A stretch of DNA of 36,885 nt, from NCBI GenBank assembly GCA_031275895.1, contig JAISOD010000060.1, positions 1-36,885 of the forward strand. The letters are read 5' to 3'. This document shows, one piece after another, positions 1,416 through 20,579 of the stretch. The translations under genes were made by a program, and so were the position numbers. How positions within the stretch are numbered: position 1 is the first letter of the stretch; each line of letters begins with the position of its first letter. This DNA comes from Holosporaceae bacterium (GTDB taxonomy: Bacteria; Pseudomonadota; Alphaproteobacteria; UBA3830). Under the pieces are notes generated by a model. That model was not told the origin of the DNA. It worked only from the letters and a program-made list of their open reading frames with translations, and searched no databases.

Positions 1416-1604
1416 CTACGACGGCATAGCATCGTCAAATAGCCCAGGGCCGGGAGTAAAAATAATTGCGCTGCGAAAAAAGAAATTATCTCCATTTAAA
1501 GGCGTCCGCAGCGGCAGCATATAGAATCCGAACAATCTCCTAGGATTAGTTGAAACTTCCACATTGTCCGCATATTTGAATAGCGTATTCGTAAATTTAC
1601 GTAG
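1416..1604 (-). pseudogene. C-terminal remnant of a second TadE-like gene
   Basis: This minus-strand frame has no start codon but encodes about 62 residues that resemble the C-terminus of the intact TadE-like protein at 13290-14126. RRLFGFYMLPLR here corresponds to KRLFGFYLLSFK there, and FTPGPGLFDDAMPS corresponds to FTTDPGLFSDTPPQ; an upstream FTNT/YTNS match also aligns. The first two thirds of the gene are missing, and the frame opens inside the 37-bp repeat at 1596-1632. It fills most of the gap between the enoyl-CoA hydratase and phaZ. It is best read as a decayed paralogue cut by a rearrangement at the repeat. Similarity was judged by eye from translations. Confidence 0.6.
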
Positions 1605-13013: not shown

Positions 13014-13184
13014 TTCTCATTTGAAATAAGTATATGCATTTATGAAAATTATAATCCCTGCGCTAAAACTACACTATCTCAGTGTGATATTGCAGCTCGC
13101 TTCATTAAATCTAGTTTTCCTAAATTCGAAAAACAAATAAAAATACTAGGCGAGGGCATTAACCCATCTCTGGTAACTACGTAA
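13014..13184 (+). pseudogene. C-terminal fragment of an unrecognised gene (second NPSLVTT copy)
   Basis: The gap 12794-13289 holds no intact gene. This frame of 56 codons plus stop opens directly after a TGA and contains no start codon. It reads protein-like (QCDIAARFIKSSFPKFEKQ) and ends GEGINPSLVTT, matching the fragment at 1597-1671. Its last 37 bp are the dispersed repeat. The family is not recognised. It converges on the intact TadE-like gene. Confidence 0.35.
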
Positions 13185-13185
13185 A
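13149..13185 (+). repeat. 37-bp dispersed repeat, copy 2
   Basis: 35 of 37 positions match 1596-1632 in inverted orientation. It lies in the gap between tRNA-Leu and the TadE-like gene, about 100 bp beyond that gene's stop. As with copy 1, an open frame encodes a C-terminus that ends within the repeat. Confidence 0.8.
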
Positions 13186-13289: not shown

Positions 13290-14126
13290 TTATTGCGGAG
13301 GAGTATCGCTGAATAGGCCTGGATCGGTGGTGAAGACGATGCGACCTTGAAACATATAGTTGTATACTATTTCTTTGTTGATTTTGAAGGACAATAAATA
13401 AAAACCAAAAAGTCTTTTCGTATCGTCTGAAACTTTTTGCCCATCTTTAAATTTATAAGCTGAAGAATTCGTATAACAGGAAGCAATCAGCAATATTTTG
13501 TATTCATCTTTCTCTATTGTAAATTCTTGCTTAACCTGTTCGCGAGGAATTTCGGTATTGTACTCTGGAATTCCCAAAAGATCATCCCAAGCCGTTTTTG
13601 AAGAATATACTGAGCAACTGAATGTATCAGGAGAAGTACCAGCCCCTGTCCAGGTTTCGCAACTCCATAAAATTTTTACTTTATTCCCTTCAATCCCTTG
13701 TATATAAACAATGGTGAGATCAGGAATGTGCCCCAATGGATATCTGGAGTCGCTACCGCAATAGAATGCATTTGTACCATAGTAATTCATGTAAGCGGCA
13801 TATGCGATTCTTTTGAGGTCGTTTCGCGTTATCCTCCTGTCCGCTCTATGTTTGCTTATGTTTTGAATCATATTGACGGCCATGTGGGCGGAATTCCTGG
13901 CTTTTGCTTTTAGCTGCTCGTATTTGGGGTAATCAAGAACGTAGTATAAGACCGCCAAAAGGGTAGGAATCGAGAAAGCGAACTCTACGAGAATGGCGCC
14001 CCGATATCGGCTAACGCCGTTGCTGCGAGGAGAAATTGCTAGATTCCTCAGCGACGCGATTCGCCGTTGCAACTTTTGCAGGAGGGATAATCTTTCTGGT
14101 CTTTGGAGCACAATCCTACCCACCAA
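13290..14126 (-). CDS. TadE-like pseudopilin/pilus assembly protein
   Basis: A 278-residue protein. Residues 1-40 are basic (RLSLLQKLQRRIASLRNL), followed by RGAILVEFAFSIPTLLAVLY, which is the TadE signature: a short G/A processing site, the conserved Glu of VEFA and a hydrophobic helix. The rest is a periplasmic domain with several cysteines (FYCGSDSR, WSCETW, FSCSVY, ASCYTN). TadE-type minor pilins are part of Flp/Tad pilus machines. A decayed C-terminal copy lies at 1416-1604 and a prepilin-peptidase-like gene at the left edge. No tadA, tadB, tadC or cpaC is present. The exact start is uncertain because no strong SD was seen. Confidence 0.65.
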   Translation of the reverse strand: MVGRIVLQRPERLSLLQKLQRRIASLRNLAISPRSNGVSRYRGAILVEFAFSIPTLLAVLYYVLDYPKYEQLKAKARNSAHMAVNMIQNISKHRADRRITRNDLKRIAYAAYMNYYGTNAFYCGSDSRYPLGHIPDLTIVYIQGIEGNKVKILWSCETWTGAGTSPDTFSCSVYSSKTAWDDLLGIPEYNTEIPREQVKQEFTIEKDEYKILLIASCYTNSSAYKFKDGQKVSDDTKRLFGFYLLSFKINKEIVYNYMFQGRIVFTTDPGLFSDTPPQ

Positions 14127-20006: not shown

Positions 20007-20033
20007 GTTCAGACAGAAGCGAGACTATGAAAC

Positions 20034-20579
20034 TTGAATTTTTCTTTACAAACGCAAAGAAAAAAGCTACAATGCTGCGATTTTATTGCTGCGATTTTAT
20101 TGCTGCGATGCGTTTCGTTGAGCCGTTTATTCAGGATTAATAATTTTCCTAGTATATCGTACAATGCTGTTGACGAGTTGCGTAAAGGTAGTCCTGAAGC
20201 TAATGATTATGAACGAGTGCGAAAGCTTGCTACTGTTGTTAATGCGGTAGTTCATAAACTGATATCCATTATGCAAGACGTCAAGACGAGAACTGACTAT
20301 GGTCTTGAAATCGAAGAATCCGAGTATGAAAATGCTGTGAATTGTATTCGTATTTTGCGCTGTGCTTCGCAGATAATTGGGGGTGATCTTTTCTCGAGGG
20401 ATGGTGTTTTGGATTTGAATGATTATATGACCGTTGATTATGAAAGCTCGCTGTGTACGCTTCCACATGCTGTAAAAGAGGTAAATTTCGTAGGCTATGC
20501 AGTGGACGCATTGTTCGAATCTTTGCGCAAGGTTAATACTGTTGAAAAGTTTAAAGATTTTTTTGCAAGGATTGATTAG
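20034..20579 (+). CDS. Unknown protein with a 14-bp tandem repeat across its start region
   Basis: The main frame gives about 181 residues from a TTG at 20034 without a proper SD. It contains LRKGSPEANDYERVRKL and a hydrophilic helical body; no family is recognised. A better start, ATG 20027 with GAG/AGAAG just upstream, is in another frame and stops after 37 codons. The 14-bp repeats at 20073-20109 lie between. One more repeat unit, or two fewer, would join ATG 20027 to the main frame. The gene is therefore a candidate phase-variable or freshly frameshifted locus. It ends 107 bp before the next exported-protein gene. Confidence 0.5.
   Translation: MNFSLQTQRKKLQCCDFIAAILLLRCVSLSRLFRINNFPSISYNAVDELRKGSPEANDYERVRKLATVVNAVVHKLISIMQDVKTRTDYGLEIEESEYENAVNCIRILRCASQIIGGDLFSRDGVLDLNDYMTVDYESSLCTLPHAVKEVNFVGYAVDALFESLRKVNTVEKFKDFFARID
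20073..20109 (+). repeat. 14-bp tandem repeat, 2.6 copies
   Basis: The unit TGCTGCGATTTTAT occurs perfectly twice, followed by 9 matching bases. It lies about 40 nt into the coding region of the 20034 gene. As 14 is not a multiple of three, any copy-number change shifts the reading frame. Confidence 0.9.

Follow-up and report, generated by a model that had tools for sequence, protein, structure and literature searches.

Does a short tandem repeat that separates a start codon from the body of a long reading frame act as a translational switch, or is it the trace of an accident at the start of a gene? A locus of this kind occurs in a 36,885-nucleotide stretch of DNA from a Holosporaceae bacterium (the window). 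The draft genome comprises 85 contigs and 873 kb and is 92.7% complete; the window is its contig 75. A first-pass annotation had proposed that the start of the long frame is phase-variable.

Repeat array and reading frames

ATG 20027 opens a frame of 37 codons that ends with TAA (20027-20140, forward strand; MKLEFFFTNAKKKATMLRFYCCDFIAAMRFVEPFIQD), and our reading of the sequence agrees with the annotation on this point. The long frame can be read from TTG 20034 (20034-20579, forward strand) and encodes 181 amino acids. Between the ATG and the body of the long frame, both TRF and the reading of the sequence placed a perfect tandem repeat of the unit TGCTGCGATTTTAT (20073-20109, forward strand; 14 bp, 2.64 copies, 100% match, TRF score 74), as the annotation had described. 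The whole array is 37 bp long and ends in a 9-bp partial unit, TGCTGCGAT. As assembled, the ATG and the long frame are out of frame with each other. The self-match run at period 14 was 23 nt, and the longest such run in each of six simulated 873-kb genomes was 12-14 nt; that is, the repeat is far beyond chance. The unit occurs at one site only in the assembled genome.

The unit length of 14 nt is not a multiple of three. In addition, no frame of the unit contains a stop codon, and every frame is open through the array. We rebuilt the locus in silico with zero to six full units. The ORF from ATG 20027 was 174, 26, 37, 188, 40, 51, and 202 amino acids long at 0.64, 1.64, 2.64, 3.64, 4.64, 5.64, and 6.64 copies, respectively. 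Of the copy numbers tested, only 0.64, 3.64, and 6.64 connected the ATG to the long frame. Thus, the gain or loss of units of TGCTGCGATTTTAT alters the frame read from the start codon, and the statement that the gain of one unit or the loss of two would connect the ATG to the long frame was borne out.

The ribosome site at ATG 20027 had been called good. The Shine-Dalgarno-like motif GAAGCGAG (20016-20023, forward strand) is followed by ATG 20027 after 3 nt and by TTG 20034 after 10 nt. Its pairing energy with the anti-Shine-Dalgarno sequence was -4.0 kcal/mol; at random positions, the 10% and 25% quantiles were -5.6 and -3.3, respectively. The site is therefore better described as only moderate, and it is available to both starts. 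Because TTG 20034 has the same motif at its disposal, the assembled state is not plainly "off"; the state with 2.64 copies could be a weak "on" state translated from TTG 20034.

In order to compare the coding character of these frames, we used a codon-usage model trained on 22 genes of the window, which is a small training set. The ATG frame at 20027-20137 scored 0.214 bits per codon, a value in keeping with real genes (mean, 0.164), and all 90 open out-of-frame windows stayed below it. The TTG frame ahead of the repeat and across it scored -0.13 to -0.02 bits per codon, and the long frame at 20109-20210 scored -0.105; both values are non-coding-like. From 20211 to 20576 the long frame scored 0.124 and was coding-like. 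That is, the long frame is not coding-like across 20034-20210, although the tracts with a poor signal are short (25-34 codons). Leaders are often odd in composition. The succession of a coding-like ATG frame, a poor stretch, and a coding-like long frame is consistent with a disturbed 5' end, and it also fits, less directly, a switch in its non-joined state.

Product of the long frame and its relative

Near its N-terminus the long-frame product has a hydrophobic stretch, IAAILLLRCVSL, with a mean KD value of 2.43 and with charges in and near the stretch. No Pfam family was matched above the cut-off by this product, and the AlphaFold model computed without an alignment had a pLDDT of 46.8 and was unusable. 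Searches by sequence gave no convincing relative in 61 related genomes, in its own genome, or in a collection of genome contigs, and no match in viral contigs. The leader of the ATG ORF had no significant match among the ORFs of the compared loci, TadE included, and the Rfam search over the window returned only a tRNA.

The one detectable relative is the syntenic gene in a congener, G001, in a comparison set of one genome per species. This gene lies immediately upstream of the relative of P0004, the gene downstream of the long frame, and we picked it by this synteny and not by its score. It encodes at least 287 amino acids and runs off the end of its contig, compared with 181 amino acids for the long frame. 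The similarity is remote (pairwise BLASTP, E = 0.005); the Smith-Waterman score was 68 against 32 +/- 5 for shuffled sequences, and 0 of 1000 shuffles reached it. It is confined to residues 95-175 of the long-frame product. The 14-bp repeat was present in no relative examined; the 5' end of the G001 gene lies beyond the contig end, so the position of the repeat is not comparable there.

Neighboring genes and a probable rearrangement

The upstream gene, P0003 (19344-20006, forward strand), encodes a protein with an N-terminal hydrophobic leader. Within the family, 34 of 41 genomes contain it, and it matches no Pfam family. Its neighbors differ from genome to genome. The downstream gene, P0004 (20687-22414, forward strand), encodes 575 amino acids with a predicted leader. 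A clear relative of P0004 was found only in G001, and an order-wide search with the P0004 alignment gave no further useful neighbor.

In G001, and also in G019, which belongs to a different genus, the gene directly 3' of P0003 is TadE-like, with a Pfam TadE match below the curated cut-off. The orthologue of the G001 gene in the window (13290-14126, reverse strand; 42% identity) is 5-6 kb from P0003, and its strand is inverted. Since the TadE-like gene follows P0003 in those two genomes and lies elsewhere and inverted here, the junction between P0003 and the long frame would most simply have been derived by rearrangement, as judged from these three genomes. ATG 20027, its ribosome site, and the repeat all lie within about 100 bp of this junction.

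The window also contains an orphan fragment of a TadE C-terminus (1422-1592, reverse strand) that is 61% identical to the end of the TadE-like protein of G001. The fragment is cut off at a dispersed element some 48 nt long (TTTACGTAGTTACCAG.GATGGGTTAA...), which occurs at 1596-1643 and at 13138-13185 in inverted orientation, 11.5 kb apart. One copy abuts the fragment, and the other is separated from the end of the intact TadE-like gene by about 105 bp. The core of the element has four copies in the genome, those on contigs C7 and C38 included.

Probable slippage at a frayed 5' end

We consider it probable that the array is not an evolved switch but a duplication that arose by slippage in a fast-evolving gene whose 5' end is frayed. 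Replication slippage would have made the array, probably seeded by the 9-bp direct repeat TGCTGCGAT that bounds it, and selection for switching would be absent. The host gene would be lineage-specific as well as fast-evolving, with an upstream edge reshuffled by genome rearrangement. The long protein, if it is made at all, would begin at TTG 20034, served by the moderate site that it shares with the ATG, or at a still weaker start downstream. Alternatively, the gene may be losing its 5' end.

The small number of copies of a 14-nt unit that is unique in the genome supports slippage. The derived junction upstream, the greater length of the G001 gene, and the non-coding-like tract of the long frame at 20034-20210 also speak for this explanation. 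A second perfect tandem duplication, at 34800-34873 (36 bp, 2.1 copies), marks the beginning of the gene at 34794-35810 and is in frame. This duplication holds a GGGAGA ribosome-site motif and an ATG, and the start of the gene is effectively doubled. It follows that such duplications arise here without frame switching. The two arrays, at 20073 and 34800, were the only perfect arrays of at least 35 bp that TRF found in 121 kb of the genome (the window and nine further stretches).

Some observations point the other way. Across the repeat the ATG frame has a good codon signal, which fits a frame that was once, or is sometimes, joined to the long frame. That the long ORF is open over 181 codons argues against decay of long standing. 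The case for slippage and decay may also be weakened by the remoteness of the homology in G001, by the unseen 5' end there, and by the shortness of the tracts with a poor codon signal.

Our array resembles the low-copy slippage duplications of reduced genomes: it is short, perfect, and head-to-tail, microhomology flanks it, the gene is lineage-specific, and rearrangements lie nearby. It differs from them in its position, exactly between the two alternative starts, and in the good codon signal of the ATG frame. A duplication of this low-copy kind at the start of a gene is nevertheless an ordinary and the most likely origin of the array.

Alternative explanations

It is rather unlikely that the long ORF starts downstream of the array, at TTG 20178, GTG 20217, or later. 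The repeat would then lie in an untranslated spacer, and 20027-20140 would be either a small ORF in its own right or what is left of another gene. The coding signal that appears only from about 20211 is as this explanation expects, and so is the restriction of the similarity with G001 to residues 95-175. Two promoter-like boxes containing TACAAT, whose ends lie at 20073 and 20165, point the same way; the first belongs to a TTTACA-17-TACAAT match just upstream of the repeat (20045-20073, forward strand). These are, however, matches to a consensus only, of which 8 were found against 3.4 +/- 1.9 expected. Moreover, the candidate downstream starts are essentially without a ribosome site, and the frame is open from 20034. 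The sequence TACAATGCTG occurs twice, 92 bp apart (20068-20077 and 20160-20169), and in both places it forms the -10-like box of a promoter-like match.

Translational phase variation seems to us doubtful. According to this explanation, the gene passes in cycles through three states as the 14-bp unit slips: a strong state with the ATG joined (0.64, 3.64, or 6.64 copies), a weak state with TTG 20034 joined (2.64 copies, as assembled), and an off state with no usable upstream start (1.64 or 4.64 copies). The frame arithmetic of the copy-number series and the openness of all frames through the stop-free unit agree with it, as does the coding-like ATG frame set against the non-coding-like TTG frame, and both neighbors, P0003 and P0004, bear leaders. 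In the frame arithmetic and the codon usage the annotation was supported; the reversible variation that it proposed was not. The unit size and copy number lie outside the range of recognized simple sequence repeat (SSR) contingency loci (PMC2651432). The repeat occurs at a single site in the genome and in no relative found, and the gene adjoins a rearrangement breakpoint. We regard as very unlikely the specific form in which one ribosome site serves two starts in different frames and the repeat chooses which of them reaches the gene.

The arrangement had also been described as typical of contingency loci. A survey of Haemophilus influenzae defined SSRs as units of 1-9 nt, with at least 3 copies for units of 5-9 nt (PMC2651432), whereas our array has a longer unit and a lower copy number. 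According to a recent review, repeat number is the determinant of the switching rate in H. influenzae and Campylobacter jejuni (PMC11868660), and a gonococcal study accepted a locus with two or three copies of AAGC because strains vary (PMC5320596). Like the tetranucleotide loci of H. influenzae and the CTTCT repeats of the Neisseria opa genes, our array separates a start codon from the body of an ORF, its unit length is not divisible by three, and its copy number sets the frame. It differs from them not only in unit size and copy number but also in being the single array of its unit in the genome, and the current frame has a weak TTG start of its own. By this comparison, the array would work, at most, like a contingency locus, and we would not file it as one.

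An error of metagenome assembly, with a true copy number different from 2.64, is most improbable: the genome is an incomplete draft in many contigs and tandem repeats are a known source of mis-assembly, but the 37-bp array is shorter than an ordinary short read, so single reads can span it.

Were the array to vary in populations, this would count as evidence for contingency switching in a Holosporaceae-like lineage, for which one review (PMC11909080) makes no mention of phase variation. If it does not vary, the locus would illustrate on a small scale how gene starts in reduced genomes are worn away by slippage and rearrangement, and would warn against taking low-copy repeats for contingency loci.

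In G001, the counterpart of the long frame carries a perfect repeat of its own (locus L029, 13699-13724, on contig C4 of G001), with a 9-bp unit in 2.9 copies that encodes a Pro-Val-Val linker. Changes in this repeat alter the length of the protein and keep the frame.
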